DNA of 64,000 bases from Styela clava (Eukaryota; Chordata; Ascidiacea; Stolidobranchia; Styelidae). The translations under genes were made by a program, and so were the position numbers. Within the stretch, counting starts at the first letter, position 1, and each line of letters opens with the position of its first letter. The notes under the pieces are model-generated. The model was not told the origin of the DNA. It saw only the letters and a list, made by a program, of their open reading frames with translations, and made no database searches. The DNA lies in assembly GCF_964204865.1 (NCBI RefSeq), contig NC_135250.1, positions 28,015,395-28,079,394 of the forward strand, given 5' to 3'. This document shows positions 2,590-34,932 of the stretch, one piece after another.

Positions 2590-5420
2590 TGAGCATTCTT
2601 TTCTTCTACATCGGAGCTTGCGAAATAGTCAACGTTTGTTCTCAAGCTAGAACTTCCTTCAAGAACAATCGTTCACGAATTGACAACTGGCCTATAACAG
2701 AAAATGAATGGACTTTAACGAAAAACGGATGTAATCACAGTAACGAAGTATTGGTGCTAAAAGTGACAAATGTAGACTATGACGAGAGGGGTTTCTATAG
2801 ATTCTATAGAAGACACCAAAATATTTGCAAGTGTCAAGTTGGTCGATATATTACTCTTGAAAATACGATAGGATTTACATATTTATCCCAGGGTAGAAGA
2901 ATACTGATAAGACGGCTTAACCATGTGGCGAATCACGGCCCCTCGCCCGGTTACCAGCCCATGTCGGGTACGGGATTAGTTAGCCAGTTATTTGTTTTCG
3001 GAAGCATAAGCTTGGTTATCCGTATTCCAATAGCTATGCATTATTTAAAACAAAGTAGGACACCACAATCAAAACGAAGAATTATCAAACCTTTCACAGT
3101 TCAAAGTTTATTCCTTATAAAAACGCTTCCGACTTCGCAAAACACCAAATTGCTGAAATGAGATAAACAAAAATAAATAAACAAAGCGGTTGCTGTCTCT
3201 GATTAATGTCGTTTTCATTATATTTTTGATTAACAGCAAATAGATGGAAAAGAACAATTCTGAAAAAAGACGAGAACATGTGCTTTTTGTTTAAACATCT
3301 CAATATATCCAAACATGATTTTTCAATTATAAATTCCGAAGGTTGTGTTGGAGCTTATTGGATAGTACAAGATGATATATTCCCTGTGAATATTGGTTTC
3401 ACACTGGATAGTTATAGAGGCTTGCACTTTGAGTTTTTGATTGATATGGCATATATCTACCAACAGGAATTTACAATAACACCAGGTAAGAACTGTTATA
3501 TTTTAAGACTATAGAATGAATTTGGTATAGATATTTTGGTCGAAGCAGGAATTGTATTTCGAAAATTTACTGTTGTCGAAACTCATATTTAACCTCTCTG
3601 AGGTCGCAGTCGGAATGTTAGACTCGTTAAATCCTGAAACAGAGGTCGACTAAATCAACTTAAACTAAAAATGGTTGCAAACGTTGAGGTATATTTATTC
3701 AAAAAATTGTCAAACCGGCTCTCAAATTAATTTTTTTTTGTCCAAATACAGAATCAAAAAGGACATTCCGAGTACGAATATATTATCAAAACTGGAAGTC
3801 GATTAGCGCAATGCATGGTGCATGTAATCAAATTAAAAACTTGGAAATATTATTTTCTTTCAAAATGAATAGAAATATTCACACACATGTCTGCATTATT
3901 CTTCAATAAAGTGTATATTATTTTTACAGTTAGAACCACTCGCCATATCAGTTACGAAGCTTCTGATCCATCCATTATATCACGCAAAACTGAGTCATTT
4001 CCTGCAACAAACGAACCAGAAAATGAGTCACTCAATGCATCTAACTTTACCCTAGATGGCGTTAGCATGGTGATCGGTCTCATCATTCCTACTGTTATTT
4101 TGATTATAGCAGTTTGGTTGATACTATGCTTCGAAAACAGCTTATGATGTAACCCTTTGTTTCGTTTGGAATTGACTTCCTTGTTTATGTATTTTATAGC
4201 TGCATTAGAGCCAAATAGGTTTATATCACATTTTAAGATGAGAAAATCGCATATTTTTAATTTTTTGATCTGTACAGTCCAACCTAAGCATGGACATATG
4301 AAAAATGAAAAATGAAACAGGTACATCTTTGATACTTAACCAAAATATGGTCACTGGACCATGATGACAAAAGGTAAAATATAAATTTCTGGAAAATGTG
4401 ACGTAAACTAATTTGGTTTTACTGTGGCGATATGTGGAAAATGGTAATTACTATAAAATTACTAGGACACAAATTGCTACCCTTGCATTTTAATAATACG
4501 CCAAAATAAATAAAAGATTTTTAATTTATCAACATGCTTGTACAAGACGAATTCAGTTGGACTATTAATGAATCGTTTTATACAATTAATAATGTAGTTA
4601 ATGTTGTTGTTTTTGTTAAACAAACTAACTTGTACGCAACCAATGAACAAAATGTTTATTATATATAAATGGAGAGACATCAGGCTACTATCTATAAATT
4701 TTTACAAAGCAGATTTGAGTCTGATAAGACACAAACTTTAACACAAAATATTCATTTTTTATTCTAATTTGAAAAAATATTTGAAACTATATGAATGAAC
4801 TGAGATGTACAAAGTATTTTGGTTTACAATATTCGTGCCATTAATTTACTTTTTATTAATATTCAAGTGCAAAGAGACAAGGATATGTGGGAACAGAAAA
4901 CATTCAAAAAAACAAAAACAGTCCAAGAGGTGAGTTATTTTTGGTATTAAACAAAAGTGAATTAAATGTGTTTTTGGGATAGTAAATGAGATAAAGTATA
5001 TGGTATAATCATTGATGTAGAGGAGAATGAACAACGGTACTGAATATCCTTTAGTTTTGTTAGAAATGTTATTTCTATAAAGCAGTTTGCATTATTTCCG
5101 CAATATTGAAAATGTTTATCTCTCTGATACAATATTGGTGTTTTAGTTCTTAGACAAAAGTGGGGTGATATCACTGTCTTTCGGACAGCAAACCCCCAAA
5201 AAATGAAAGGTTGAGAAACTTTCAATTTTATTCAAATCAGGTATAAACAGTCATATATTAAAAAATAAATTAAACTAATGAGACTCAATTTTTTATTTTA
5301 AAAGGCAATTTGGATGTAGAGACCAGTGGTGAACATCAAAACGACGAACCAGCTTATTCTAATATAATTAATGAACCAACATACGAACAACCAATGGAAC
5401 GCACCTACCAAAATGTATAA
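2590..5420 (+). pseudogene. Decayed copy of the tyrosine-motif membrane receptor (left arm)
   Basis: Exons homologous to exons 2-6 of the intact receptor at 30938-34932 lie at 2590-2837, 3237-3485, 3930-4148, 4868-4929 and 5305-5420. Four defects point to a pseudogene. There is no exon 1 (start codon and signal peptide), because the matching segment is absent from this arm. Exon 2 is 5 bases longer and would enter exon 3 out of frame, and its donor is GTTGGT instead of GTAAGT. Exon 4 lacks one base just after the membrane segment, giving an early stop at 4144-4146. The exon 6 acceptor AG has moved, although the frame there is kept. Otherwise the reading frames are open and well conserved, including the final tail motifs (AYSNI, TYEQP, TYQNV), so decay is recent. 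A replacement first exon outside the window, or assembly errors, cannot be excluded. Confidence 0.72.
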
Positions 5421-7704
5421 TAACTGATGCGAACTGACTGAGATATTGAGATGCTTCAATCTTTGTTTTTATTTCCTGTGAGCTCATGAAATTCAAAAAT
5501 TATCATTTTATTTTTATTGTATTATTTATATTGAACATTTGAATTTTCAAAACTTTTTTTGGGGGGGTTAAATTTCCATTTTCCATTGATATAAAGGGAG
5601 AAATATATTTAATTAATAAATTTCCGATAAGAATTGTTTGAGTCAAAACCAAGTTATTTAAATCAACGCAATCGGAGAATTGTATATATTTCTCTATATC
5701 AAAAGTTGATTTAAAATTGTACTAATACCAGATATCGTAGCAAATTTGCAATGTGTCGCTGATAGTAGTCTTTTTCCATTCCTTTTTTGTGAAATACCGC
5801 TATTTCTTCAACTTTTCAACCAATTGATTTGAAAGTTTTCGTGGTTAAGGATTGTTGGTGTCACTGGACGGTTATTACTTCCATTTAGTTAATAAAAATA
5901 GATGTGGGCTATATAACATTTGTTTTTCACTTTTGTTTGATGACGTAATCGAAATTAATTATTGTTCACTGTGCCGTTGTAAAGAGAAGCAAATCGAATC
6001 AGCATATTCACGTATTTAATTACCGTTAAACTATGCATTTAATCAAAATATATTGAATTTAACTGTAATTTTATTGGCTTTATATTGAACAGGGTAATTC
6101 ATTTGTGACCACCACTTATATATTTATGTCGTTTGGAATACTTGGTAATAGTTTATGCCAGTGTTGACTATTATATAAATATACAACTTTGAACATTTTA
6201 TATATGATTCTTGATGCAGTATTCAATTTATTGCGAATAGCAGAAAGTTTGCATATGTTTAATATAAAGAGGCATATTATATATATAAATTTGATACAAG
6301 AGAACAATACTCAAATAGGCCTATATGAAGACGGACATCAAAACCAGGTAGTACGGCCACAGGTATGCAATCAGTCACATGAGACTACTTGTACCGCAGT
6401 CTTCACGACTTCGCCTGACGAATGCCAACCCGTAACCCGCACAAGTAGAGCAAATTTTAATTTTAATGACGTCATCGCAATAAAAAAGTTCTGACAAGTT
6501 CTTTCACTTCAGAAAACCATGCCGAATCTATATCTCTATAAATCAAGATCGAGGCCGTTGATTATCGTGATATTCCAAAAACGGGCTTGCACGAACCCAA
6601 GAGATCCCGTGTATCCAACCATTTTATACTGAAGCGTTTACAATAATGATAATCTATTAGAGTCATTAACAGTTCAAGTGCTTCGTTGCCAATTGAAACA
6701 AAACATAGTATGTGTACCAGGTTAGAGTTAGGCCATAATTTTATTCCAATTTTCCTTCAATTATATTACTAGTTCGAGGACTAGCCAAGTGACTCCCGTA
6801 GTATTAGTACCTGAAATTATGGCATAACCCTAACCTGGTACACATACTACGTTCCGGTGTCCGCCATCTTGGTTCACATACATCAGGAGTACCCAAAATT
6901 GCTCTATACTTAATCTAATTTACCCTGTTACACGCGCTCGTGTTTGAGAACCGTTGATACAGAGTGACAGAATCTGATCTCAGCCATGACAAGAAACGTG
7001 GCTTCAAATTATATTATTTTTTCGAATTTGAACTTTCGAAACTGTTATTCACGATTTATGATAATTGATTTATGATTTATGATGAAAATTCAAGGTTTTT
7101 GTTGTAAAGGTAATACTTCATAAAAAATTATATAGGATGAATTTTTCATACAAAGGAAAAGTATGTGAGACTGTAAGACGGATTTATCATACGGCAAAAT
7201 AAAACTTTCATTCAGTATACTAAATCACAAGAAACCAGATAAGATTCTATTGATTAAGTAAAAAACGATGACCTATGTGCCTAGATCTTAGATGATCCCC
7301 TGTTTCCAGTGTTTCTCCAATCTAGGATTAGGTGGTAGTGCATCCGGGAAATTTTAAAATGTGCACAGAGGTTTTTATTGGGCCTACAGTAGATTTCACG
7401 AAAAGTGCGTGACTGAAAAAGAATCAACGTTTGGAAACACAAATTGATAAATAAACAAAAGAATTAGTTTTGTCACGAAAACTTAAACTGTAGCTTTGAT
7501 AATAGTAATATAAAACATTTTTATGATACTCAAAAATTTTTAAGCGTTTGTGGACCTAGAATTTCTTTTGACGCTGGACACCCTTCTTTTGACCACAAGA
7601 GAAGGAACGATGAGAACCGACGTATCAGTCGATATTATACTTATAGATTTGCAAGTAAAGTATAGAAATCTGTAAAACGGATGACAAATGTATGTGTGAC
7701 TTAC
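5421..7704. other. Non-coding left-arm DNA with a dispersed repeat
   Basis: The stretch matches right-arm DNA at about 29230-30937 and, from about 6900 on, 27115 downwards. The part at about 6080-6710 is a dispersed repeat containing TGACGTCA, with related blocks at about 29240-30120 (the mirror copy), 24790-25060 and 59880-60110. Short open frames here have no splice support or recognisable domains. Confidence 0.6.
6712..6895. mobile_element. Miniature element, ATGGCG-end family
   Basis: It begins GTGTACCAGGTTAGAGTTAGG and ends with GTCCGCCATCTTGGTTCACA and CATCAGGAGTACCC, the typical right terminus of the family. The left terminus is missing. It lies exactly where the left arm lacks about 2.1 kb that is present in the right arm. 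Confidence 0.7.
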
Positions 7705-8330
7705 CGTTTACAAAGTCGGTAAGGCCCGTGCTCGCTTCATCTGCAATAAAATGACTTTATACAAGATATTTACAAAATGATCCCGCCTATTACTAACAAA
7801 CTTCGTTTTTGCCTCATGAGAATAATACTCTGTGATTAGTATTATGGCCATGGATAGACGTAAATAAGATGAAGAAGGTATCAGACCTGAAACTTTGCTT
7901 CAGCAATAAATAAAAATAATATTAAAACGTAGTGTAACAAATTTTTAATTTGAGTCGCCCACTATAAACTAGACCATTAATAAATTTATATGCCATTATT
8001 ATCTGCTAGCATTTAATCATTTTCTTTTAATAATTGCGAATAAAACAAAAATAATATTGAAAATATTTATTAAAAATGTGCTAACAAAATTTTTACTTTT
8101 TTTCATGGTTTGAATATATTACTTTTTTTAATTTTAAAGCGTTACTTATTTTTCTAATAACTCATTTATTAAATTATATAAATAACTTGTCAACTCCTTA
8201 AATACTTAATGGATGTCCAATTGCATCGTGCATTTTTTTTCGTGCCCAATCAAGAATAATAGCAGCTGAAACTAGAACTTTGTATCCCAGAAATAAACAA
8301 AACAACAAACAAAATATTATAACTAGCCAT
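7705..8330 (-). pseudogene. Decayed copy of the small secreted-protein gene (left arm)
   Basis: This is the mirror of the intact gene at 25882-28739. The exon 1 counterpart (8206-8330) has one extra base in the signal-peptide region (125 instead of 124 bases), which puts the ATG at 8330 out of frame with the otherwise conserved part reading SAAIILDWARKKMHDAIGHP. Its donor changed from GTACGT to GTATTT. Exon 2 (7705-7740) is intact and reads DEASTGLTDFVN with good splice sites. The last three exons, present in the right arm, are missing with the rest of a roughly 2.1 kb segment. A separate signal-peptide exon at 9040-9103 ends in the same phase and might rescue exon 2, but no terminal exon is visible. 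Confidence 0.7.
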
Positions 8331-9039
8331 TGAATTACCACTAATCATAAATTTCAAAGAATATTACATATAATCCATTTGCCATACGACGCAGTTCCAA
8401 ACACTCACGCATAATTGCTTCCTACAGCAAGATATTCATAGTTAAGTTTTTTTTTCATCCAGTAAAAAATAACATATAAAACTGACAAAATACAAAATTA
8501 ATCACACAAGAAAACTAGAGTTACAGTATTTTTGTAAACCATATGAAATGAAATTATAAACAAGATTTCATTTTTATCTCTACAGATAATAAAACATATG
8601 ATATTAAAATTTTAACGTTCACATTTTCTACGAGGAGGTATTTGTACATATTTTTAAGTTTGGAAAAATTGGTTAAAACTATTTTCTGTCCGGAGACTGA
8701 TCTTTGAGTTACTGGCGGGGCGGCTACGCACCTGCCTATGCTGAAATTTAATTAGAAAATTGAAAATTTTTATTTTATCGATAGTGGGGATTGTGGGGAT
8801 TCATGATAATCGATTAACAATGTGATTAGAAGTATACATTGCAGAACTATAAGCTTTTAATATTATAATTTATACCAATATATATATATATATATTGCTC
8901 AAGAAGCTAATAATTAATTACAACGACACACACTTAATATTTTGATTCCATACTAGATTACCTACTATATTGTTGTTTAACTTTTTTTTGGCGAATAAAA
9001 CCGTTCTAGAATGCCATTATTATTTCAAAAATTACTTAC

Positions 9040-9103
9040 CTATTATCCCATTACATTTAATAAATAGAGCACCGGTTAAGAATAATGCTACGAAACTGTT
9101 CAT
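9040..9103 (-). CDS. Candidate signal-peptide first exon of an unassigned gene
   Basis: On the minus strand an ATG at 9103 opens MNSFVALFLTGALFIKCNGI, a good signal peptide, and ends in phase 1 at a canonical GTAAGT donor. A possible TATA-like TATATAATC lies further upstream near 9313. No downstream exon can be assigned firmly. The only phase-compatible exon recognised is 7705-7740, which belongs to the decayed secreted-protein copy. This may be the start of a hybrid or dead gene, or a chance open frame. Confidence 0.35.
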
Positions 9104-12100
9104 AGTTACCTCCGATTTTTCTAAACGTTCCAACCCAACGTAGTTGTGTAAATATCTTTCGGTTTCTAGTGCTTGCCAGAGTTAGAACTTGTTGTACTTA
9201 ATAGGATGTATATTAGTTTCCGTTTACGTGAATTGAAAGTACAACAAAGTTTTTTTCCTCCGAATGAATTGTGTTGGTTAAAAACAACAGCCTATCTGGC
9301 ACATTTTAGGATTATATACTAATTACATATTTAGATTACATACTAACATACATACAGCTGTTTTATATGTTAGCATATAAACATTAGGTTATCACGGTAT
9401 TAAATATGGATGTTTCAGTTCAAATACGATCAAATAATTTCAAATGCAAAGACTTGAATTGAATACAATTTGAAAATAAGTTTTGTAATAATATTAATGA
9501 AACTAGTTTTCGTTTGTATATCTCAAACTGATTGTAACAACATAATGTACATGATGTGTTGTGCATTGAAAAAATCGTTAGCGAATTTTTAAAAATCGTA
9601 AAGTTTTGCGCTGTAGTGGATATAGTATTTTAACTTTCATACATCTTAACAAAAAGCAATCATTTACATAAATCAAGCGTGCCTATGAAGTGTAAAAGTT
9701 GTTATATTTGAAAACAAATTCCATCTCAATAAACTCGAACACAAATTCCTTGCAACCAAAATGATGTTAAAGCTGAATTAGTCTAACTCCTTGGATGCTT
9801 TTTGACCAACATTAAATATGTTTAATTTACGCTATGTAGCTACATCATATACGGCATATCAATGAGCGTATCAAATATTTTGTTTAAAATTATGAATGAA
9901 AATTTCGACCCGTTAATATATTTTTTCTCAAAGTACTCTTCAATTGCTTGTCAAATGTATACAAAAACTATTCCCAGGTAATTTCTGTCCTACTGTTAAT
10001 CTTTTGATACATGCACATCAACATATTAATATTTATAGCCTCTTTTGATTGACAAAATTTAAATTTTAAGTTCCAACATTATTTCATCAAACGATTTTAA
10101 TTTTTGCAAAAAGTTAAACTTTAGGTTTGGCTAAATTTCCTATTTTATATATCTTTATCGGAAGCAAAGTATACTATGGATTTGTACAAATGCCGGCAAT
10201 GTGATGAGAACCCTGTCACAACGTTTAATCTGATTTGAAAAGCAATCAAAATCACCAAAGTATCAAGTATAGTATTATATTTTTATGTAGTAGATTGCCG
10301 ACGCAGTTTTACCCAAATAATACAGAACATTTGTGAACAATGTTAATGCAATTATGTAAGTTTACAAAAGCTGACACACTTTCAAATAAAAGATACATTA
10401 ACTTTCTTTGAAACAAATCACGATTTACTGAAAAAAAAAAGGTTTTTTAAATGTTTTACAATATAATATGCACGTTCAAACAATACGATGAGTGTGGTTG
10501 TTTTGATGCATAACCCGACTGAAGGTCCGGCATAAACAATACTCCGAGTTAATTTGAATAGATTACATCGTTTTATGAAATTAATGAATTGGATAAATTG
10601 CGACGCAATAGAAGTTCTTGCAAAATCTCGCAAAGTACTAGTGCTTTCACACGCACAGTTTGGGAACCACTTTATTAGCTACTTAAATAAATATTCGTTG
10701 ATAGTTTATTTTCTATATTCCATCATCTCAAACTTTTCGCAAAATATTGAGCATCCCAATCTAGCCCAACCCAATCATTTCTATATTATCATCTTTTTTT
10801 CATAGAGTCCTTATTTCTATGCATTTAAAATGAACACAGACAAACCAACGTTATATGAAACAAAAAATATAAAATTTATTCACAATTTTATTATAGAAAA
10901 ATCAAAATCATCTTATTGGAATTGAAATGTGGTAGGCCATATTACAATTTTTTTAATTGATTAAATACCAATGGAAAGTAGAATATTATATATTATTGTT
11001 TATCACTTTACTATTTTTTTAATGAATCCGCGTGACAACGGCCAAATACGGATCCAAAATAAGAAGTAGACTTGAAAAAAGAATCAACAGTTCAATTCAC
11101 AATATCCTAGTACCCTCCCTCTCAGTGGTTCCCAAACTTTTTAGAGTTGGGACCCACTATTTATTACCACAGCTTATGGCGACCCACTTAACTTAACTTA
11201 ATTTTCTTTTGTTTTTTATGACATAACACAGAACACAGCAATAACTAATCATTGCAAAAGTACCGTGAAAATAAGACCTGGCCTAAAAATAAGATAATAA
11301 TTTGAATTTTCAAAATGATTTTAAATAAACCCTACCCTTAAAATAAATTTAAAATGTGTGGGAGAAGAAAGGTTCATTAGCTTGAGGTAAGGTGAAGATC
11401 ACAACACTATTCAAGATTGTGTGATATCACAATTAGGATATTTTTCACTTGATTTTTGTATAAGAAATACAAATAAAAACAATGGATGTCGGTTTTTATA
11501 TATTATTTAGTGAAAAATCTTGTTATTTTCTACAATGTAATTTTATTTTTGATAGATGAACACAAAAGACCATTTACACACTATTCTATCATTATATAAT
11601 ATTAACATTGTCTATTGTATGTTAATTAAGTTAAATAATAAAAATCTAATTCAACCAGGGAGTTTGGTTCGTTCTAATAATCCAAGTATCGAATGGCGAT
11701 GTTTTGGTTGAACGACCAAAATGTACTATTTTATTGCGATCTGAATCCAATTTATATTTCCATTGATTACGACGTTGATCTAAAAAATCAAATATTTTCT
11801 GTTAAACACTTATAAATAGTATACGAAATTGCTGTGTTACAGATTGTTGTTGTTGTTGACAAAAACCATTTTTTTCTGTTCAACCGCTAGAGACAACCTT
11901 TTTATTTTTTACAGTATTACTTACTTCTCTTTCATGTGTTTACGTGTTTTTCACTAATCCAAGCAAATTTTTAAAATTATTGTTTCTAATGCGACCTTTA
12001 TTGAACATATTTTATAATATTTGATATTTTTTCTACATGTGTTTAGTATTTCCCAACTGATAAAATTGTCAACAGCATAGCCAGTAATTTTGATATGATG

Positions 12101-20119: not shown

Positions 20120-23100
20120 TCAATTTGAATAAATTTCGTATGTGTTCACTCCTGCATCGTTTCCATCCAAGTCTTCGTAACTGTCGTCTCCACACATCAT
20201 GTTTCCACCAGCATTGATCGGATTTAAGTTATGATTAGTGTACGCTGTCTCCATGACTGATGTAGTAGCAAACTGCGCCATTTCATACTGAGCTGAAATA
20301 GACATTGAAGTATCAACGTCAATATAATGACTACATTACCTAAAATAGCTTGATTTTGTTTTTGACTAGACATTATTTAAGGCTTGAATTTTTTCAATGA
20401 AATAAACAAGAATAAAAGTTATTGTACGAATAAAAAATATTGAATTACTTATATTAAAATTTTCAGTTTTTGGTATAATCATGAAATTTTTCAAATTGAA
20501 ACAAATTCAGGCATTTAGATTATATGTTAATATAGCGCTCAGTTATCACAAAATCTAAATCACTTATTGTATGCACTGCATCTTCACAAATGGACTAATT
20601 CTTTCTAGTTTTTTAGTAGAAGATGAAAGTATATCATAAAGTAATAAAACTTTCATAAGATCATAAGATGTTTCTATCATTTTACCAAAACACATTTTTA
20701 AACATTGGCTCACTCAAAAATTGGAATCTGAAGGTTTTGAAACTATATGAAGTGATCAACCTTTATAACAAATGCTACGCGCAATTTCACAACTACACAG
20801 TGACATAACCCTCGATCTCCGACCTAAATTGTCAACATCCTTGATGTAACATTCTGAAAATTAATATAGGCCAATACACCACGTACCTGTTGCATCTGTA
20901 ATACCTTGATTCGGATTCGCGTGAGCAGATAAAGCAACATGTCTTTTCATTCTGGAAAGCATATAGTTTTTATGAAATTGATGATGAGTATGCAGTTTCA
21001 AACAGAAAATACGGTGCATGGATACTGATAGTTTTAGGTACCGGTATACAGTAGACCTACCTAACATACAGTCCACCTCATTCGTTCAGATAGAGGCTAA
21101 ATACGTCAAATAAACAAATTTATCGATAGGTAAACTGACATGTTTGGCTTAGATAGTGGCGGATCTTGAGTAACCTAATACTGCTAAAATGGTAAAATTA
21201 AATCTATGCATTGATCAAATTTTCTAATAAATTATTGAAAGTCAGACAGTATAAGTATTAAATATTTGCCCATGTACATGTCAGTCCACATAAAACTAAA
21301 AACAATTGAAAAAAGATGTCAGCATTTTAGCAAATTCTTTTAACTTTAAATACTGAATATTAAAATCGATTAGTTCACTAGAAAGGCGTTCTTTCTTAAC
21401 AACAACAACAAACGAAACAACAACAACAATTTAGCAAAACGAATTATATGTACACTCCATGCCTTTTTATCCTATAGAAACCCACCTCAAAAATTGTGTC
21501 CTGTAATACATCATATTCCAAACTGTTAAAACCAAAATTATGGTAGGAACGATCAGGCCTATTATAAAGCTTATGACGTCAAACTGAAAGTCAGCATCAC
21601 CTGCAAATAATTGAACAGTTGAATAGTTTTAATCCTCACTTCAAAAAGAGCAAATACAAACCACTCACTAATACGTAAAGCCTTGTGTATCTGCTTAACA
21701 TTGTATTAGTCAGAAGGAAGTAAACAACGGCGTAACAATTGAAATTTCAGAAACTGCTTCAGTCAAATACATCTATAGACATGGTTTTTAACATATAGCG
21801 TATTTTTGCCAGTTGTATGACATTTTGTAATTTTGAAAAATACGTATTAATCGAATTTCTCAATGATCATTTTCTTACGAGTAGTGTTAATTTAGTTGCA
21901 GTAAATCAGGCTTAATACCCCAAAAGCCGCGATGTAATAGGCTTTATTTTGTTTATTTTATTGTGGTATGTGGTTGAATATTTTGAATCAAAAGAATTGT
22001 CATAAATTCCAAATCTCTTCGTTAGAACCAACTCGTAATCAATTTTGGAAGGATCATAAAAAGAATTTGAATGGTAAGAATGGTAATATATTGAAAGAAT
22101 TTACTGTATTGAATCAGTACTGAAATATTTACCTTGTTGTTTTTTTGTTTCCGTGATGTTAGATTGGTATGAATGGGTAACAGCAATCACAAAATGAGTC
22201 CAACCTTGCGATGTAAGCGTTATGGGAAATATATCTTTGCTCATCATCATATGAACGCTGGCACATTCATTTGGAAAAATTTCTATCAAGTCTGAAATTG
22301 ATATATTCTCTGACTTGAGCAAAAAACATTGGTCTTTATCTTGTATTGTTAGATCCCGTGTCCAACTCGGCCCTATAAAAACACGAAAGATATGGCTAGA
22401 CGCCGTGATAGGTTTCATTCTGTTCGCACGGACCCGTTCATTAAATGTCGCGTGGATTTGCTTATCCGAACCTATTTTTACAACTATGAGTTTAGAACGA
22501 TTTTTCTGAAATGGGCGAAACAGAACAGGAATCCAAGATGCCAGCTATTACAGAACAGCGAATATTAACCTAGTATCTGAGTTGAGACCAATTTTGCTTC
22601 GTATTTGAATACAAACACTACGAATAACAAAAGACAATCGTAGAAAGTAAATATACATGAATATATAAATCCCTCCATGCATGGAACCATTGCATTTTTT
22701 TCAACATTGCAAATTCCAATATAAAACGTAAATCAGGATTTAAATGTGAACACAAAAAATATCAGAAGAGAGAAACAAATTCTAAAATCATAGACAAGCT
22801 ATTTTCAATCCCGCCTAAACAACATACCTTCTTTTCACACGGAAAATTAATAGCAGCAGCCAAACAAATAGTTACCGAATAAATTTGGGTTGGTGTGCAG
22901 CAAGACTCTTGAAACTAACAGATAGCCATCTTCATTCTTGCTACTGCACCTTTACATTATACACATACGGATCCATCTCCACCAATGCATATAGAACAAG
23001 AAAAGGTAGTGGGTTCCCCGCAACCCCAACTGATAAATATATTTACATATGTAATTTTACCATCTTTTATATTTTGTAAAATATGTTCCGTCTTCATAAA

Positions 23101-23439
23101 AATCACTCAGACACGGTTTACCATTTTGGCAAAAATCGGACTGGGACGGAATATATTACATAAGAAAATTAAACCGTGTGTTATTAAAAAATAGAAAAAT
23201 AAACAAATCCTAACCTGATACTGTTAGTGGCGGTGCGTAGCTTATTGACCCAAACGTAAAATCTTGGCTACATGGATTAAGTGCTCCTATGATTGTAATT
23301 TTCAGCAACCATTGATCGTTTTGAGAATTGCAATCTCCTGTCAGTTTCCATGTTTTATCTCCGTCAAGAGATATTGAGTTAGTATCATTGGAGCACACAT
23401 CGATCTCTATATCTTCGGCATGGGCAATAGTAAGAGCCA
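20120..23439 (-). CDS. Third member of the tyrosine-motif membrane receptor family (first exon not found)
   Basis: Exons are 23215-23439, 22133-22372, 21486-21600, 20887-20951 and 20120-20292 on the minus strand. They follow the same exon/phase plan (1,1,1,2,1) as the receptor at 30938-34932. Exon 2 encodes the end of a signal peptide (VALTIAHA) and a domain with cysteines and WKLTGDC...WLLKIT, similar to W-T-x-T...C...VLKVT in the other copy. Exon 3 has CFLLK...C...KDIFPITLT, matching CFLFK...C...QDDIFPVNI. Exon 4 holds the membrane helix (FIIGLIVPTIILVLTVW). The tail has tyrosines in YEMA, YTNH, DSYEDL and TYEIY contexts, and the last two form a spaced YxxL/YxxY pair resembling an ITAM-like array. 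The initiating signal exon must lie above 23439 but was not recognised. It is intact as far as seen. Confidence 0.7.
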
Positions 23440-25440
23440 CTGTGAACAAAAAGTAAATATCTTATTGTTTTACTGGTTCACAAACTACTAATGAAAAATC
23501 TGATATTAGATTTGTTACACATTGGTAGTTTTTAGATATACTTGACTCTGCAGGTCTTTAAATCTTTTGTTTTATCTCCTGCATTCACGTCACAAACCCG
23601 ACTTTAAAAAAAAACGGAAAGCAAAAACGTCGTTTTTTTGTCCAATATTTTCTGCGGATAGAGTCATGAACAATGATCGAGTACAGGATATGCATTTCGA
23701 TCTGAACAAAACTCTATACAGCTATCCACGACAACCAGAAATATTTAAACTGCAATACTAACATAATTAATCAAAAGAATAATCACAGGGCATCGCGCTG
23801 TTTTATCGCGTTTCTTTTTTCCGTGCCATCAGTCTTTTCTAAAAAAATCTTTTGCACGCACATGGAAAGCTACGAGCTAGTATGTTTTGATTTTTATCAC
23901 ACAAATTATCAGCATTTAGTAAGTCTTCTTCTATCAGTAAATCTCACCTATAATCACAAAGATTGCACGTGTTATCATTTTTTAGATGATCCAATAAAAT
24001 TTTCCTTATCAACTTTACAGTCTGTTGCTTGCCTTCACTTCCTAAGTAATACCTATGGAAATAGACTTGACAGTGTTACTGGAATTTCCGGTTTGAAATT
24101 TCTGTAGCCAACTTCAGGTTTCAATAATGAATACGGTGAATTCCTTCTGCATAGAATTGATATCACAAGATTTCAGTATGCTATTTATAGCACTGTTCGA
24201 AATATCATACGTTTTAAAATGCATGTAGGATACATTAACATGACACGTTTTACACAGATCCAATGTATAATCCAAATATAACGCTATTCTCCAGCTGCGG
24301 TGTATGTAGGCCAATTATTGCTGCATTTGCCTAACGTTTAAAAATTCAGAACATAAAATAATTTATAAAACATAGCATTAAAAGTCTTCAAGTTCATTCA
24401 CATATTTAACAATTACTTAACACGAATTAGTTTTCTTAGGAAATCCGTTTTCAGTATGTGCAAAAAATAAATTAATTGCATTAGTTCAGTAACGCATTTC
24501 TCTACTGGTAAACTATACATTTAATCATGTTAACTTGAATTTAAATATAGTACTATTGGATTTTCATTGAGCAATGTACTTTAAATATGTTGATATGTTT
24601 TGTGTCGTCTTTTGCCCCGTTTGGAATACTTATCGATGCTTTATATACAGTTGTTTATAATGTATATAATTTTATAACTTGAAACTTCACTGAAGAATTT
24701 CATGGTATATTTTTCAAACTAATGCAGGTGACCAGGTAGAATGTTAGCATTTATTCATAAAATATAGCATAAATGCGACCAAAATGACAGATTTAAAAGC
24801 AATGACGAGATTCAAAATGTTGACATCAGGTTCTATTTTACTTCGAACTCAGTATTAACAGGTTCTATCATTCCAGAAAACCATGCCGACTCTATAGCTA
24901 TCTATATCGGATTCGCTCATTATCAAGACATTTCGTTCGTTTGCGCGAACACTCGCGAACCCCGAATATATCACTACTGTATTGATCCTTTTTATACTTT
25001 TATGTAGTTTGCAGTCACAATAATCTATTAGAGTTATCGTAATAATTTTGAGTTCAAATTTTCTGCGTTACCTAATAAAATCCGAATTACTTCCGATTCT
25101 GAAGTAATTGTAGCATAATGATTTTGCTTCCTTTGTAATTTGACTATTGTCGTAAGAAAGTTTACTTTAGCCTTCCAGGGATTTAGCTGATTATTGGTCA
25201 CGACATCTAAGAATCGTTTTGTTATTATATTGTTGTTGTTTTTAGTGTTAAGAAAAAAATATCTTTTCAGCTACTTGATAAATAACTTTGAAATTTCCAG
25301 GAATCTCTCATGGAATCCAAAAAAATTACCTACATGTTCTCTTGTATGTATCAGAATTTCTGCACAGATTATTTTAGAAATCAATCTCAAAATAAAACAA
25401 ATATCAAAGCAAAAACCAGTTGCTGATTATCATAACATCC
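23440..25440. other. Non-coding stretch with one repeat copy
   Basis: It should contain the missing first exon and promoter of the receptor gene at 20120-23439, but no convincing ATG-plus-donor was found. At about 24790-25060 lies a third copy of the dispersed repeat also seen at about 6080-6710 and 29240-30120 (shared AGAAAACCATGCCGA and TAATCTATTAGAGT blocks). Confidence 0.5.
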
Positions 25441-25470: not shown

Positions 25471-25478
25471 TATATAAG
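25471..25478 (+). promoter_or_regulatory. Putative TATA box of the small secreted-protein gene
   Basis: TATATAAG lies about 400 bases before the ATG at 25882. A short sequence with TTTCAGTTCAGTCAGG follows about 30 bases downstream. The left arm has weaker similarity here (CCCACTATCGATAAAA), without the TATA. Confidence 0.4.
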
Positions 25479-25881
25479 ATCGAAAGTTTTCAACTTTCCA
25501 CCTTGAATTTCAGTTCAGTCAGGTGGAGAGCCTCCATTAACTCAAAGATAAGTCTCCGCACGTAACTTGGTTTTGAGCACTTCCACATAAAATTAAAAAA
25601 TATATATGCAAAAACTTTCACGCTGAAAACGTGAACAATTAAATTTATATATTCACCATTTGTTTTATTTTATGTTGGGATAAAAATAAAATCTTGTTTT
25701 AATCTCATTTCATATGGTTATTTTATTTTTTTTTTACAAAAAATACGGTAACTCTAGTTTTCTTGCTTTAGGAAGCACGTCCCACTGACGCACAGGATTA
25801 TGAGTGTGTGTTTGGAAATGCGTCTTATGGCAAATGGTTTATATTTAATATTCTTTGAAACTTAGAATTAGTGGCAACGCA

Positions 25882-28739
25882 ATGGCTTGTTATCTATTTT
25901 GCTTGTTATTTTGTTTATTTCTGGGACGCCAAAGTCAAGTATCTGCTGCTAATATTTACGATTGGGCACGGCAAGGATTGCACGATGTTTTCGGAAAGTC
26001 ATTAGGTACGTAAGAGGTTTACAATACATATATATTGTTATTTTTATTCACCATTATTAAAAAAAAAAAAATTAGCACATGATTAAATGCTAGCTGATAA
26101 TAATGGTAAACAATCTCATTAGTGGTCTAGTTCAGGGGTGTGCAACCTTTTTTTATTGGCGGGCCAAATACAAGTAACTGGGTGAAGCCGCGGGCCGCAC
26201 CTTTATTTAATTTAGGCTTTCTGGTAGTTGCAAGCACAAAAATTGCCTATATTTGCTATTGATCCTACGGCATTATTAGGGGTTCTTGCAGAAATATTAG
26301 ATTTGAAACGCATAAACTTCTGAAGAAACTGCTATTCAAATTTTTTGTCACACCAACTTCAAACGAATGGAGTGAGAAACACGTTTTTGTAATATAAATC
26401 GTGTATTTTGCAACAGAATTTTGCTAGCTTGTTTTGCTTTGCGACGAAAAAGAATAAATTCTCAATTTGCGGGTACACCATTCGAAATTGTTATTTCTAC
26501 GCGGGCCGCACAACTCCTTCTTGCGGGCCGAATTTGGCCCGCGGGCCGCAGTTTGCACACCCCTGGTCTAGTTTATAGTTTTTGTTACACTGCATTTTGA
26601 TATTATTTATTACAGAAGCAAAGCTTCAGGCCCGTTATCTTCGTAATCGTATTCACGTTTATTCATGACCATAATACTAATCCCAAAGTAATAGTCTCAT
26701 GACAAAAAAATAGATTTTTTATTTAGGTGAAATTCGGAAACATTTTTGTAAATACCCTAAATAAAATTATTCAATTGCAGATGAAGCGAGCACGGGCCTT
26801 ACCGACTTTATGAACGGTAAGAAACACATATGTTTTGTAGGAAAGATTCATCATATATGATTTTTTATAAATCATTACCTTTACAGAAAAAAATATTGAA
26901 TTTTCATCAGAAATCAGAAATTAATTATCATAAATCATGAAAAACAGTTTTGAAAGTTCGAGTTTGAAAAAAAAATTAAAGTCGAAGCCACGTTCATTCT
27001 CATAGCTGAAGTCACATTCTGTTACTTTAGATCAAGAGTTCTCAAACTGGAGCGCATGCAACCCCAAAAGTACATTACGACGCTCACATGGTACATTAGA
27101 TTAAGAATAAGTCCATTATTTCCATAACCATACCACGGAAACTAAAACGCAGTTTCGCAGTTCAAACGACTCTTTTTGTCTAATGCCAGGTATCAAGACA
27201 ATTTTAGAGTACACGTTCGATTCATAAAATGTCCAAAGGGTACCGATGAATGTAAGGTTTGGGAAACCCTTCTCTAGTGGTTGAACATTTGTTTGGCATT
27301 TTTGGCAACTAATGAAGAGTTTTATTTTTATTTTTTTTTAAATGAAAGACAAAATTTAAATCTCCCTACAGTTGGAGACGTCCGTGATTCTATTTTGATT
27401 TTATTGTCTTTAACTTTACCCATACTTGCAGCTTCTCAGGCACCGATCGAAAGCAAATTTTTTGGTACTGCCGTAGTATGTATACCAGGGTAAAGTTAGG
27501 GCATTTATTTATTCCGATTTTTCTAATTTTAATTCTAATACAAGTTTGGGGACTGTTTGTGTTAGTCCTTTTACACAACGTCATGTAAAAAATACTCACC
27601 TCCACATTGATAACAACACTTCTAAAGCGCCAATTTTTTAAAGAAAAATGTTTGAAAAGTATGTTATATTGAACAAATTTCAATTGATCGATTAATTGAG
27701 TTTTTTTTTCAATTCGATCAGGAGTGACTGACTGGAAAAGTTGGAGTGATGGTGCGTAAATATTTTATATATTACCCGACAACCCCATTATAGAGGCTGA
27801 AGACATAATCTGGGTGTCAATAGAGAATAGTGCAGTTTGAACTCTCAAACATTGTTTACAGCTTACGCAATAGTGTGGAAGCCTATATTCAAATCATGCA
27901 TGTGCGATGTTCAAAGAAAAATACATTTAGAATATAAATACTGTATGATCAGAAATATATCAGAAATATAATAGATATATACGTGAAATGGTGTTGGAGT
28001 GTATTTCTGAAAACATAGAATTTGAAAACTACCATGATTTTAGCGTTTGTTAGTATCTGATTTTTCATCCATTAATATTTTCTAACACCCAATCTACCTC
28101 TGGAAATAATTTTTTTGGATACTCCAGAAGTGTATGCACCAAGATGGCGGACACCGAACGTCGAATGTGTACTAGGTTAGGATTAGGTCATAATTTTAGG
28201 TACAAATATTACGAAATTCACTTGGCCAGTCTCCGATTTCGTAATAAAACTAAAACAAGGAAAAGTGGAATAAAATTATAGCCTGACCCTAACCTGGTAC
28301 TCATACGACGTTCAGTAACCGCCATCTTGGTGCACATACTTCTGGAGCGCCCATTTTTTATTTTAAATAAAATTCTCTATAACTTCTATTAATCGATTAT
28401 TTTCTCTTTTAGTCGATTATTAACTTTTTCATTTGCATTAGAGGTAATTGATCATTGATTCTATGTTTTTGTCACATTTATTCTTATAACTTCTTTGATA
28501 CTTTGCGTTAAAGAGCAAAACAAATGTGTTAGGTCAGACAATAATTGCTTTTTATTTTTTTTATTTAAACAGGCAAAAATTTTGATGATATCTGGAAAAT
28601 GTTCAAAAGTAAGAAAATGACTGAATAAATAACTTGTGCCTTAACATTTCTAAACTTCTTTGATTTATTTTTGACAGATCTTCGTCAAGTTACCGTGAAG
28701 AATAAGTGTCCAGTCAATTGCTTGAAAACACATAATTAA
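25882..28739 (+). CDS. Small secreted protein assembled from very short phase-1 exons, 95 aa
   Basis: Exons are 25882-26005, 26781-26816, 27722-27751, 28573-28608 and 28678-28739. Every junction is phase 1. The first exon gives a signal peptide (about residues 1-22, MACYLFCLLFCLFL then GRQSQVSA) followed by NIYDWARQGLHDVFGKSL. The next three exons are only 36, 30 and 36 bases and encode DEASTGLTDFMN, GVTDWKSWSD and GKNFDDIWKMFK, each a short tryptophan- or phenylalanine-bearing amphipathic-looking unit. The last exon ends with KNKCPVNCLKTHN, with two cysteines three residues apart. No family was recognised. Symmetric exons mean any of them could be skipped without a frameshift. A hAT-type miniature element interrupts intron 1. 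Poly(A) signals AATAAA follow near 28780. An extra small exon near 27371 was considered and left out. Confidence 0.62.
26133..26565. mobile_element. hAT-type miniature element with 8-base target duplication
   Basis: Termini CAGGGGTGTGCAAC and GTTTGCACACCCCTG are inverted copies. The flanks are perfect 8-base direct repeats GTCTAGTT (26125-26132 and 26566-26573). The 433-base interior has GCGGGCCGCA-type blocks and no coding frame. The matching left-arm position (7967-7974 in reverse complement) has a single uninterrupted GTCTAGTT, so the insertion came after the duplication. Confidence 0.93.
27467..27566. mobile_element. Fragment of the ATGGCG-end miniature family
   Basis: It carries GTAGTATGTATACCAGGGTA and TTAGGGCATTT with the AAGTTTGGGGACTG block, matching the interior of 28121-28347. 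Both termini are missing. Confidence 0.55.
28121..28347. mobile_element. Full-length miniature element, ATGGCG-end family
   Basis: The left end ACTCCAGAAGTGTATGCACC then AAGATGGCGGACACCG is mirrored at the right end by GTAACCGCCATCTTGGTGCA then CATACTTCTGGAG. The core carries the TTAGGATTAGGTCATAATTT and CTCCGATTTCGTAATAAAAC blocks found in fragments elsewhere. It lies in intron 3 of the small secreted-protein gene. No coding capacity is seen. Confidence 0.85.
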
Positions 28740-30937
28740 CATCATATGTCATTTATAGATAAATTCATTTATTTATTCCAAATAAATACAATAAATTCTA
28801 AATTATATCTTTGTGTGAATTTATTTAGGAAAAAATAAACAATTTTAACACAAATTGGAAATACAATTTTTCAAATTTTTCAATTTTTTAAATGCCTTTA
28901 TTGCTGGAGTGGTGAGCTGAAGCTAAAAATAGGCTGAATATTTGTCAACTAAAATTTGTCTCAATGTAAGGCCACGCAAAGTCACTCAGAAGGAAAACAG
29001 GTTGATTTATGAGATAAGTTACGAGCGACCAAGGAAGTGTCACCTATAGAAAGCGTATTTGAAATAAGCTGCAATTCTCATTAAGCCAGCAACACGCAGT
29101 CAAATTGAATTTCCAAGTACGTGTACTTAATAGTCCTAATAAATCATCGCAGAAACACAGATTTTGCTGAAATCTTAAAACGTAAAATTGAACTTTGTTA
29201 CAAAAGTAATCAAATTTTCAGGTATCGGGAGTTAATTTTGTTTCAGTTGGCAACGAAGCGCTTGAACTGTTAATGACACTGATAGATTATTATTATCGTG
29301 ATCGGCAGTCTAAAATAACGCATAAGTGTAATGTTGACCTTTAAGCAAAGGATAGATACACAGGCTTCATTGGTTTGTGCAAACCCGTTTTTGAAATGTC
29401 GTGACAATCAACGACCCCGATCGTGTTTGAAATTCGGCATGTTTTTAGAGCCTTCGATACAAAACAGAAATTGCTTAGAAATGTTGAATCCCACCCATCG
29501 TTGTTAATCTGTCATGATGGCATTTGATCTTTAAGGATGTTATTGAACATAAACTGTATCTATCGTTTTGTTATTATTATTTTATAGTTGGTAATATTTT
29601 GCTTCTTGTTGCTGTTGTGAAAAATCGCTTTTTTTTTTACTGTATTACTAAAACAATTGCTCTGTTTAAAGATAATTTTTTTTGCAAAAAGGCTATTACT
29701 TTCATTTATTTCAAAAATTTGTTTGAGTTGTATGTAATTCGTGTTGTTGCGATGACGTCATCAAAATTAAAATTTGCGCACCTTGTGGGGGTTCCACGTT
29801 CGCATTCGTCAGGCGAATTCGTGACGACTGCGGCACAGGTAGCCTACTGTGACTGATTGCATACCCGTACTACTTGGTTTTGGTCTCCGTTTTCATATAG
29901 GCCTATTTGGGTATTGTTCTCTTGTATCGAATTTATATATATAATATGCCTCTTAATATTAAACATATGCAAACTTTCTGCTATTCGCAATAAATTGAAT
30001 ACTGTATCAAGAATCAAAAATGAAATGTTTGCAGTTGCATTTTATATAATAGTCAATACCGGCATAAACTATACAAGTATTCTAAACGGCACAAATATGT
30101 AAGTGGTGGTCACAAATGAATCGCCCCGTTAAATCACATTGCTCAATGAAAAGCCAATTAGTACAATTAAATTCAATAATTTTGATTTAATTAATGCAAA
30201 GTTTAACGGTAATTAAATACGTGAATATGCTGATTCGATTTGCCTTGATAAGAGTCAAGTTATTTTTTATATTACTCAGGACTGAAGGCAAATTATGATT
30301 ATATCATTGCACCAAATCAAACAATGTTGCTTGCAATACCATGTGCTGAATTTTGTATTATAAATTTAATAAGTCTTCTCTTTATAACGGCACGGTGAGC
30401 AATATTTAATTTTGATTACGTCACCAAAAGAATCTTATAGAGCCCACAGCAATTTTTATCAACTGAATGAAAAAAAAGCTAGTGACACCAACAATCCTTA
30501 ACCACGAAAACCTTCAAATAAATTGGTTTAAACGTTGAAGGAAAAGGCGATATTTCACAACAAAAGCATTGGAAAAACAGCGACACATTGCAAATTTGCT
30601 ACGATATATGATTATGATTCAGCATAGCTGACAATTTTAAATCAGCTTATCTCTTTGTTCCTTATTAGTTATTTGAATAAATTACTATTGCTTCCTTTAT
30701 ATCACTTGTTACTTGAAATTAGAATCCACGATAATTTTAGAGCTTTTGAGTAAGTGTTTGTTATATACGTTATATAGATTAAAGTATTATTACAAAATAA
30801 ACAAGATTTGAAAATTTAAATGTTCAATATAAATAATAAAATAAAAACTAAATGATAATTCTTGAATTTCATGAGCTTACTGATAATAAAAACAAAGTTT
30901 CAAGCTTTTCAACGTCTCAGTCAGTTCGCATCAGTTA
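28740..30937. other. Intergenic right-arm DNA between convergent genes
   Basis: It contains the mirror copy of the TGACGTCA-bearing dispersed repeat (about 29240-30120). Open frames inside it are shared with the left arm only as DNA and look non-coding. Confidence 0.55.
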
Positions 30938-33900
30938 TTATAAATTTTGGTAGGTGCTTTCCATTGGTTGTTCGTAAGTTGGTTCAATAGTTATATCAGA
31001 ATAAGCTGGTTCTGCGTATTGATGTTCACCACTGGTCTCTAAATCCAAATTGCCTTCTAAAATATTTAAAAAAAATTGAGTCCTATTGGCTTAATCTATT
31101 TTTCAATTTATAACTGTTTATACCTGATAAGAATAAACGTGAAAGTTTCTCAAGCTTTCCTTTTTTTTTGATATGCTGTCCCAAAGACAGATATATTAGC
31201 CCACATGGTCAATGAATCAAAACACGAATATTGTAATAGGGAAGTAAATTTTTTCAATATATTGGATATACTGCAAACTGTTTTTATAGATAATTACTTT
31301 TAACAAAACTAAAGAATAATCAGTACCGCTGTCCATTTTCCTATACACCAATGATTTAACAAAAATAACTCACCTCTCGGACTGTTTTCGTTGTTTGGAA
31401 TGTTTTCTGTTCCCACATTTCCTTGTTGCTTTGCACTTAAAATAAAATTAAAAAGTGATAATCAAAATCGGCACACATATTGTAAAACAATCACTTTAAA
31501 CATCTTCATTCATTCATATGAATCAAAAAAAAATTTCTCAAATTTGAAAAAAAAATGAAAATTATGTGTCAAAATTTATGTCTTATCAGACTCAAAGCTG
31601 ATTTGGAAAGAATATATAATTGTATACTGATGCATCTATTATATATTCAAAATTTCGTTCATTAGTTGCGTACAAGTTTGTTTGTTTAACTAACAAAAAC
31701 AACAACAATAACAAGAATATAAATTTAATTAAACGAGACTAGCAATTTCAGCAATTTTTGTCACATTTTCAATTTTTCGCATATCGCCACAGTAAAACCA
31801 AATTAGTTACGTCACATTTTCTAAGGAATTGATTATTTTATTTTCATGTCATCATGGACAAGGCGCCATATTTTGGTTTGGTATCAAAGATGTACCTGTT
31901 TCAGTTTTTATTTTGGGTAGTGCGTTATGTCCATGTTTAGGTTTGGCTGTTTGAAAATTACAAACATGCCATTTTTGCAACTTCCTATAATGTGATATAA
32001 CCAAATTTCGCTCTACTGCAGCTATGTAAAGATATAAACAAGGAAAACGATTCGAAACCAAATAATTTGAAAAACAAACAAAATCTTACATCATAAGCTG
32101 TTTTCGATACCATAGTATTAACCAAATTGCTATAATCAAAATAACAGTAGGAATGATGAGGCCAATCACCATGCTGACGCCATTTAAGGTAAAGTTAGCT
32201 TCATTGAGTGACTCATTTTCGGGTAAGTTCTTTGCATGAAATGACTTATTTTCGTGTGATATAATGAATGGCTTGGAAGCTTTGTAACTGATATGGCGAG
32301 TGGTTCTAACTGTAAAAATAATATATCGTTATTTTGAGAATTATACACGCATATGTATATAGTTAGTTTTATTCAATTCTTACGAAAATTATATTTGAAA
32401 GTTTGAATTCGATTACACTAACAAAGCATTGTTTTTTTTAAATATACAATAAACTTTTTACTCCTCATAAAGTCCGACTTCTAATTTTAACATATACCTA
32501 CTCGGAATATCTCTTTTAATTCAAGATTTGAACAAAAAAATTGAATTGGGATCCGGCTTGACAAGTTTGTAAATAAATATAACTTAACGTTTGTAACCAT
32601 TTTTAGTTTAAGTTGAATAAGTAGACCCCTGTCTCCGGATTTGAAGAGTCTAAATTTCCGACTGCAACTCCAGAGTAGTCAAATATGAGACTCGACACCA
32701 GTGAACTTATAATAATTCCCGCTAAGACTAAATTATATATATAAAAAAAATAAAATTCACCCCATAGTCCTAAAATAATGCGATTCTCACCTGGTGTTGT
32801 TGTTAATTCTTGTTGGTAGATATATGCCATATCGATGGAAAACTCAAAGTCCATATAATAAGACAGTGTGAAACTAATATTCACAGGAAATATATCATCT
32901 TGTACTATCCAAAAAGCTCCCACACAACCTTCCGAACTTATGATTGAAAAATCAGGTTTGTATATATTACGAGGTTTAAACAAAAAGCACATGTTTTCGT
33001 CTCTTTTCAGAATTGCTCCCTTCCATTCATTTGCTGTTAACCGAATATATAAAAAAAAACATCATTGAGGGCAACACGATTTCTGTTTTATATATTTACG
33101 CAATAAATTTTGGAACAATTGTCTTGGAATTGGCAATGGATGAAGGCAGTTATAGTTGCTAGTTGTCTATTACTCTGATTTATTCAAAAAATTCTTGTGA
33201 TTTTTATGGATTCGTTTTTTACTTTAAAGTTTTGTGTGATGAATCCAAAGTCGCGCACTTTGTGGCAATTACGCAATCGCATTTCAGCAATTTGATATTT
33301 AGCGAAGTTGGAAGCGTTTTTGTAATGAATAAAATTGGAACTGTAAAAGATTTGATAATTATTCGTTTTGATTGTAGTATCCTACTTTGTCTTGGATAAT
33401 GCATAGTTAAATGGAATACGGATAATCAAGCTTTTGCTTCAGGAAAGAAATAACAGACTAACTATTCCTATACCCGACATGAACTGGTAACCGGACGAAA
33501 GGCCGTGTTTCGCCACATGATTAAGCCGTCTTATCGGCGTTCCTCTCCATCGGGATGAATATGTGAATCCTATGATATTTTTGAAAGTAATATATCGACT
33601 TACTTGACACTTGCAAAGGATGTTGACGCCTAATTCTAAAGAAACCCCACTCCTCATAGTCTATACTTGTCACTTTTAGCACCAATACTTCGTTACTGTG
33701 AGCACATCCGTTTTTTGTTACAGTCCATTCGTTTCCTGTTATAGACCCTTTATCAATGCGTGAATCATTGTTCTTGAAGGAAGTTCTAGCTTGGGAACAA
33801 ACGTTAACTATTTCGCAACTTCCGATATAGAAGAAAAGAATGCTCACTGTTCAAAGAAATAATAGCAATATTAATGCGATTGTCATTTTACGCTACCGCT

Positions 33901-34932
33901 CAAGCGTTGAGTCCCTCCCTCAATTTTTATTTTGCGAATTATCTTACTAATTTACAGCACCACGTTTCGTAGGTAAATTGATTGAGCTGGACAACTTGCA
34001 ATGTCAAGTCAGACCGACAAACACTCCTAACTATAAGTACCAAGGCGTACTAATGCCCTGATTAAAAAAAAATTTGCCCGATGTCTAAAATCATCTATAC
34101 GTAAACTTACAAGCGAGTACTATAAAACCATGAGCAACTTCACTCGTATGGTTTACTCGCGATATCGAATGCCGATAATCGTGAGTGGTGAGAAGTACCT
34201 TAAGTCAAAACGACAAGCAAAAATAAATCGCGTGAACACCAAGTGATTGAATTTTTTCCGGAATCAATTTTGGAGTGAATATTTCTTTCCCTGATCTTTC
34301 GACTTAATTGTGACCAATTTCTTACATCTCTTTGGTTTGTATCGAGTAATTACCTGGTCAGGATTAAAATCTGAGATCTCCCAATTGCGATTCTAAATGA
34401 CAACACCCACGCCCAAACAGATGGATGTTCATTATCAGTATAAATCGAAATCAAATGGAGGAAACCTTATAATTGAAATGATGATGTTGAATAAATTAGT
34501 TTATATCGTGAGTCAGATATAATTAATGCATAAGATATAAAACAAGCAGTATTCATAATTATTTTTTAACATTCTTAATTATTTTTACTATAATAAAGGA
34601 AATTTATATGACACTTGAATTTCAGTTTGAATATGATTGTACACAAAAGTTTTAGTAGACTATAACACTATACACAAAGGTTATTCTCTCTCTAGAATAT
34701 GTTCCCAATAAACTTGAGGGAAGGGGGACTTTGTAGTACAAAAAACACACCGCCTCAGATTTTTAAAATATGTTCACGAAGTGTGAATGCGCTCAGACTG
34801 AGTAAATTCGCAATAAAATGAAAAATCAAAATGAATTGGGCATTTGACACACATATAAATTCATTTGATGAAAACAGTAAGCTTACCTGCTATCAGAAGC
34901 AAAAATAGTCTCTGCATAATTGAATATTTCAT
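30938..34932 (-). CDS. Type I membrane receptor with C-terminal tyrosine motifs, six exons, 310 aa
   Basis: Exons on the minus strand are 34887-34932, 33604-33846, 32791-33033, 32090-32309, 31374-31435 and 30938-31056. All phases agree (1,1,1,2,1) and the donors are mostly GTAAGN. The signal peptide spans exon 1 and the start of exon 2 (MKYSIMQRLFLLLIAVSILF, cleavage near residue 25). Two ectodomain modules of one exon each follow. The first has Cys32, NEWTVTKNGC and EVLVLKVTSIDYEEWGFF, with an Ig-like feel. The second has CFLFK...GCVGAFWIVQDDIFPVNI. A stalk with N-glycosylation sites at 198, 209 and 216 leads to a membrane helix at about 222-244. The tail carries Tyr285, 290, 299 and 307 in YAEP, YSDI, YEQP and YQNL. 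STYQNL at the extreme C-terminus fits the ITIM pattern S-x-Y-x-x-L and a Grb2-type YxN. No named family was recognised. A phosphotyrosine-signalling surface receptor, perhaps in immunity or self-recognition, is inferred. Confidence 0.75.

Follow-up and report, generated by a model that had tools for sequence, protein, structure and literature searches.

A large, apparently undescribed family of receptor-type genes in the ascidian Styela clava

The stretch of Styela clava chromosome C1 analysed here (contig NC_135250.1, positions 28,015,395 to 28,079,394 of the forward strand, 64,000 nucleotides; hereafter the window) carries three related loci, A, B and C, which, together with a paralogue on contig C17 (D), appear to represent a family of small type I single-pass surface receptors; a putative signal peptide, membrane helix and cytoplasmic C-terminus can be read from the sequences of B, C and D. 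The family is large, with about 50 loci in the genome, and apparently is a receptor family new to print: no description of this ectodomain or of the sharing of its membrane exon was found among the titles and abstract openings listed for the open literature, a scope that takes in few subscription papers and bioRxiv preprints. We favor this reading as surface receptors, with immunity or self-recognition as their most likely use, at a probability of roughly 0.6.

Gene structure, family size and constraint

Locus C (34932-30938, minus strand) consists of six exons of 46, 243, 243, 220, 62 and 119 nt, with GT-AG splice sites throughout and intron phases 1,1,1,2,1; the exon models, rebuilt with splice sites, amount to 933 nt including the stop and encode 310 amino acids. 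Locus B, on the same strand, shows the layout and phases of C, with all six exons open (849 nt including the stop, 282 amino acids). The preliminary description of this DNA had left B without a first exon; this exon, of 31 nt, is now located by alignment with D, in which the ATG, the length and the donor are all conserved, and it encodes MITRAIFVII and a split codon, so that the spliced start reads MITRAIFVII-VALTIAHAEDIEID. D itself (C17, 9398429-9402887), the closest paralogue of B, is intact, encodes 309 amino acids in exons of 31, 228, 231, 202, 65 and 173 nt, and keeps the phases of B and C. Locus A (2590-5420, plus strand) is an inverted duplicate of C, with DNA identity of 76-81% that extends to introns and flanks, and we call it decayed because its exon 2 is frameshifted (248 nt vs 243 in C), the acceptor of its last exon is destroyed, and its exons 3 and 4 have altered lengths (249 and 219 nt vs 243 and 220); the A-C DNA comparison established no exon 1 in A. 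The layout and phases common to the three loci and the decay of A had been recorded in the preliminary description, as had the CFL(F/L)K..C..DIFP stretch, the GLI(I/V)PT membrane segment and the STYQNL-stop terminus, and the rebuilt models bear all of them out. An intron of locus C also holds a dispersed repeat (window 31783-31950), which a DNA search finds at 39 more places in the genome at 68-82% identity.

To what extent has this family spread? The same genome (376.6 Mb) was searched with B, C, one member from contig C6 and one from an array on C1; matches to exons 2 and 3 at E <= 0.05, with positions pooled from four match lists, were merged into one locus when within 2.6 kb, and the count leaves out membrane-exon matches and the match at C6:18514951, which spans exon 3 and the membrane exon. 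This procedure yields 53 clusters, namely 34 on C1, 13 on C6 (18.2-18.55 Mb), three on C17, two on C3 and a weak one on C13; those on C1 comprise 31 at 27.58-27.95 Mb, directly upstream of the window, plus A, B and C. The figure is approximate, given that one cluster consists of two merged neighbours and a pair 3.2 kb apart is perhaps one gene, and it counts loci rather than working genes, some copies having internal stops and the search scoring best candidates only. The earlier suggestion of spread by duplication is supported by these approximately 53 loci. The resemblance among the loci exceeds chance, because profile hidden Markov models (HMMs) built from nine members match the left-out loci L050-L053, which were picked from the weaker matches of the genome search, at E 1.4e-28 to 2.1e-20 for exon 2 and 9e-27 to 4.6e-19 for exon 3; chance resemblance is thereby ruled out. 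In nine other loci, the splice sites examined around exons 2, 3 and 4 keep the family phases; for the membrane exon, the start was visible in only four of these loci. As for departures from the common structure, the C3 member L065 (C3:20.19-20.25 Mb) carries part two of the ectodomain and the membrane segment in a single open frame, as after intron loss, and in L082 and L084 of the C1 array there is an additional exon 3 unit, broken in part.

The genes are under constraint, with omega of 0.51 between B and D (bootstrap 0.36-0.70) and of 0.25-0.62 (median 0.44) when nine C6 loci are compared within groups (22 pairs), a set that excludes 14 between-group pairs, 13 of which have saturated synonymous divergence (dS).

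The ectodomain

The ectodomain, about 140 residues long and containing at most six cysteines, is encoded by exons 2 and 3; in the family alignment, four cysteines and a W, an L, an F and a P occupy invariant or nearly invariant columns. The preliminary description had taken the two exons for independent modules, a view that the cysteines do not favor. The two cysteines on either side of the exon border, the final one in exon 2 and the initial one in exon 3 (C56 and C68), are both kept in 15 of 20 members and both missing in three (L039, C and A), and B and D have only the former, in a region where the alignment is uncertain; the exon 2 labels were set by hand from the alignment, and the Fisher test (p 0.009) ignores relatedness, with A and C being a single lineage. 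This joint presence and loss points to a disulfide across the exon border and therefore suggests that exons 2 and 3 form one disulfide-linked domain. A profile comparison of exon 2 with exon 3 as an internal repeat was negative.

Sequence searches assign this domain to no known family. Neither B nor C has a Pfam family over its cut-off, and the same holds for 17 members at E <= 0.05, with sub-threshold hits in one member each, two in all; no C-type lectin, immunoglobulin (Ig) or sushi domain was hit by Pfam in B, C or the 17 members, and for CUB there was neither a profile match over the domain nor a Pfam hit in the 17. A profile of these members finds no PDB sequence match below E 0.55. The best Pfam candidate, the SNAD1 deaminase (E 0.0043 over 39 residues, with 17.4 bits where 25 is the cut-off; E 0.0094 in the 17-member scan), is taken as chance, as are short matches to PDB sequences of galectin-1 (E 0.028) and of an antibody, the IL-21 receptor and protein C. 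Profile searches thus place the ectodomain in no well-described non-receptor family, SNAD1 and galectin-1 being sub-threshold only, and the multigene receptor-type family proposed at the outset stands, with its type I single-pass layout, its tyrosine-rich tails, no Pfam match above cut-off and no convincing PDB sequence match.

Weak signals of a beta-sandwich-like kind are shared with CUB and Ig domains: the exon 2 profile scores 19.9 against Ig (maximum 18.6 in 100 block-shuffled controls) and 18.2 against CUB (maximum 13.9 in 100), with hhalign probabilities against known domains all at or below 24.4%. It is possible, if doubtful, that exons 2 and 3 make up a very divergent CUB domain, that is, a member of a known extracellular class. 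The C6-C32 spacing of about 26 and the run W-x-L..LLLKL..C-x-G-x-L-x-I resemble the CUB pattern, and the co-loss of C56 and C68 agrees with a third-fourth cysteine pair; yet the hhalign probability is only 5.5% and 2.5%, the conserved W precedes the second cysteine instead of following it, and exon 3 fails to align. Distinctly less likely is a shrunken Ig-like domain in exon 2, which would tie the family to receptors of the Ig superfamily, perhaps akin to the Ig/sushi receptors of Botryllus. In some copies exon 2 ends like an Ig F strand (for example, LRDSGYYQC), the exon 2 profile gives P 0.00081 with none of 100 column shuffles reaching its score, and a 23-member exon 2 profile gives P 0.0021 with none of 100 block shuffles doing so. 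Against this, exons 2 and 3 together give P 0.022, the SGxYxC form is confined to a minority of members, and Pfam, which detects a true nearby Ig exon at 4.9e-7, reports none here; the signal may be that of a generic beta-sandwich because CUB scores nearly as well.

Membrane exon, cytoplasmic tails and other features of the window

For B, C and D, the membrane exon is similar to that found in receptors of the C-type-lectin and lectin-Ig kinds on C1, and a lectin-receptor membrane exon used as query matches those of A-D in turn. In two single-gene lectin receptors this exon starts in phase 1 and ends in phase 2, as in the A-D lineage, whereas the membrane exons of six other sampled family members are dissimilar to those of A-D. 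The lectin-like exon in A-D and the dissimilar exons in these members lead us to propose that the A-D lineage arose when exons were shuffled via phase-1 introns, which is well supported but not proven. Tyrosine tails, too, are common to the family, to C-type-lectin receptors of the natural killer (NK) type and to the C1 lectin receptors, from which the family differs in having no recognisable C-type lectin domain. At C1:25.28-25.63 Mb there is a receptor gene array (L047, L056 and others), in which exons for a C-type lectin domain, an Ig domain and possibly FN3 lie in the upstream part of the one copy read there, and the tails carry SSNVLQETxGYEQ-like repeat units whose number differs between the copies read.

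The immunoreceptor tyrosine-based inhibitory motif (ITIM) follows the pattern (S/I/V/L)xYxx(L/I/V) in a cytoplasmic tail, the activation motif (ITAM) consists of two YxxL/I spaced by 6-12, a hemITAM is a single YxxL after acidic residues, and YxN is a docking motif for Grb2-type SH2 domains; YxxL/I/V also fits sorting signals. The tail tyrosines lie in QYAEP, AYSDI, TYEQP and STYQNL in C, in QYEMA, AYTNH, DDSYEDL and TYEIYSN in B, and in AYKNN, QYQMA, LYLTP, CYEAV and EYEIYSN in D; A keeps three of the four tyrosines of C. The best-kept feature of the four tails is a tyrosine followed by x-N close to the C-terminus, and the ITIM pattern occurs in C only among A, B, C and D. The YEDL/YEIY pair of B, previously read as an ITAM-type array, is not one because YEIY lacks L/I at +3. 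Tyrosine signalling by these tails is likely; they do not establish an ITIM/ITAM pair.

Coordinates of the features of loci A, B and C in the window
Feature	Position	Strand	Basis
A exon 2, frame-shifted relative to C	2590..2837	+	family HMM of exon 2, E 1.1e-20 (A outside model)
A exon 3	3237..3485	+	family HMM of exon 3, E 7e-27 (A outside model)
A exon 4, membrane exon	3930..4148	+	matched by lectin-receptor membrane exon, E 0.0066
A exon 5	4868..4929	+	rebuilt exon model
A exon 6, AG acceptor lost	5302..5420	+	rebuilt exon model
B exon 1 (MITRAIFVII)	23948..23978	-	alignment with D on C17: ATG, length 31, donor GTGAGA, phase 1
B exon 2	23215..23439	-	family HMM of exon 2, E 1.6e-20 (B included in model)
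B exon 3	22133..22372	-	family HMM of exon 3, E 4e-28 (B included in model)
B exon 4, membrane helix DFQFDVISFIIGLIVPTIILVLTVWNMMYYRTQFLR	21486..21600	-	
B exon 5, cytoplasmic	20887..20951	-	rebuilt exon model
B exon 6, five-tyrosine tail	20120..20292	-	rebuilt exon model
B DDSYEDL, hemITAM-like	20168..20188	-	sequence and motif definition; EDTCYEAV in D, so not strictly kept
B C-terminal YEIYSN (YxN)	20123..20140	-	same letters in D
C exon 1, putative signal-peptide start MKYSIMQRLFLLLIA	34887..34932	-	ATG, donor GTAAGC, phase 1
C exon 2, ectodomain part one	33604..33846	-	family HMM of exon 2, E 3e-28 (C included in model)
C exon 3, ectodomain part two, CFLFK..DIFP	32791..33033	-	family HMM of exon 3, E 9.7e-32 (C included in model)
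C exon 4, stalk and membrane helix GVSMVIGLIIPTVILIIAIWLILWYRKQLM	32090..32309	-	
C exon 5, cytoplasmic	31374..31435	-	rebuilt exon model
C exon 6, four-tyrosine tail	30938..31056	-	rebuilt exon model
C C-terminal STYQNL-stop, ITIM pattern and YxN	30938..30958	-	sequence and motif definitions

Elsewhere in the window, at least two cytochrome P450 genes are represented by their C-terminal exons at 44334-44648 and 53334-53648 (plus strand; E 5e-27 and 8.5e-28 for Pfam p450), and p450 matches occur in 12 of the 114 window open frames scanned. On contig C9 there is one glycosyl hydrolase family 6 (GH6) exon (E 1.5e-6, above cut-off), which agrees with a tunicate genome; in tunicates, a GH6 domain is fused to cellulose synthase. 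A search of the assembly for COX1 gave no match.

Proposed function and alternatives

What could such receptors do? The predicted build is a signal peptide, a compact ectodomain, a stalk and a membrane helix, followed by 60-80 residues of tail that contain four to six tyrosines. At the cell surface, the ectodomain would bind a ligand of self or microbial origin, Src-type kinases would phosphorylate the tail tyrosines, and SH2 proteins would then dock: a SHP-type phosphatase or a Grb2-type adaptor at STYQNL of C, a Syk-type kinase and a Grb2-type adaptor at DDSYEDL and the YSN end of B. Receptors would then differ in output according to their tails, much as NK-type receptor sets do. The most likely setting would be blood-cell immunity or self-recognition, a view strengthened by the resemblance of the membrane exon to those of C-type-lectin and lectin-Ig receptors.

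Comparable systems are known in ascidians. Allorecognition systems appear to pair the same signalling with unrelated ectodomains, according to PMC12065747, which also describes the FcoR/fester genes of Botryllus schlosseri as, like the present family, multigene, clustered and endowed with tyrosine tails, with a type I layout in FcoR. In the same paper, the FcoR/fester tails have ITIM, hemITAM or core YxxI/L/V motifs (ITIM or hemITAM in FcoR), and the FcoR ectodomain, of Ig and sushi domains, is given as V-type Ig, sushi and two C2 Ig domains in 520-610 amino acids; here, comparing by description only, about 140 residues without a known match form the ectodomain of proteins of 282-310 residues in total. 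Another parallel, from PMC5465252, is a Halocynthia roretzi haemocyte glycoprotein with two ITAMs, a surface protein of blood cells that likewise has motifs for tyrosine signalling, next to ITIM/ITAM proteins of Ciona; compared by that description only, the window genes differ in having no ITAM.

Several findings weigh against recognition receptors with contrasting tails. Of the paired activating/inhibitory set envisaged in the preliminary description, the single ITIM-pattern motif of C survives, but it reads RTYQNV in A, a decayed twin, and DDSYEDL of B, which fits a hemITAM, is EDTCYEAV in D, which fits poorly; the tyrosine motifs are weakly conserved, and by our estimate, uncomputed, a single ITIM in a four-tyrosine tail is no rare outcome of chance. 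The C6 tails read have YSVV or YSVI, to which L039, L043, L051 and L052 add a terminal E(L/I)YNL, and these are not ITIMs. Omega, a gene-wide average, gives no sign of gene-wide diversifying selection over the whole ectodomain. The membrane exons of C6 members are not alike with those of C1 and C3 members (Z -0.4 to 1.5); this own-family mismatch could be plain divergence, which is why the positive lectin match carries the shuffling argument, and the joining of lectin and membrane exons in one transcript is read from order and strand only. Models of single exons, for the comparison with known folds that had been proposed, have low confidence (AlphaFold2, three sequences, mean pLDDT 59.5 and 46.8), with none of 207 Foldseek matches of the low-confidence exon 3 model at E <= 0.001.

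Adhesion or developmental receptors of the same architecture, whose tails would act in endocytosis or in growth signalling of the Grb2 type, would accommodate some of these points, in that the best-kept C-terminal motif of A-D is the Grb2-like YxN rather than an ITIM, YxxL/I/V is compatible with sorting signals, and selection is purifying. We consider this function unlikely: some 53 strongly diverged loci, most of them gathered in two clusters, and the likeness of the membrane exon to its counterpart in lectin and lectin-Ig receptors are commoner for recognition receptors. That the loci are non-functional repeats, mostly pseudogenes in segmental duplications, is highly improbable; locus A is decayed, several array matches have internal stops and two array loci an extra, partly broken exon 3 unit, but B, C and D are open across six exons with equal phases, and omega is well below 1.

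A recognition receptor family therefore appears to be the best reading of these genes, and we would tentatively extend it to an NK-complex-like supercluster on one chromosome of a non-vertebrate chordate, in which unrelated ligand-binding ectodomains, namely C-type lectin, lectin-Ig and the newly recognised six-cysteine domain (about 50 places), may be combined through exon shuffling at a phase-1 intron with tyrosine tails and one shared type of membrane exon, as a self/non-self repertoire. The family bears on how recognition receptor sets arise outside vertebrates; here, a single genome combines, within 3.4 Mb, different ectodomains with membrane exons that are similar, and the large adjoining array represents a domain without a match in the sequence libraries searched. 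The family thus supplies concrete genes for tests of haplotype variation, blood-cell expression and SH2 binding.
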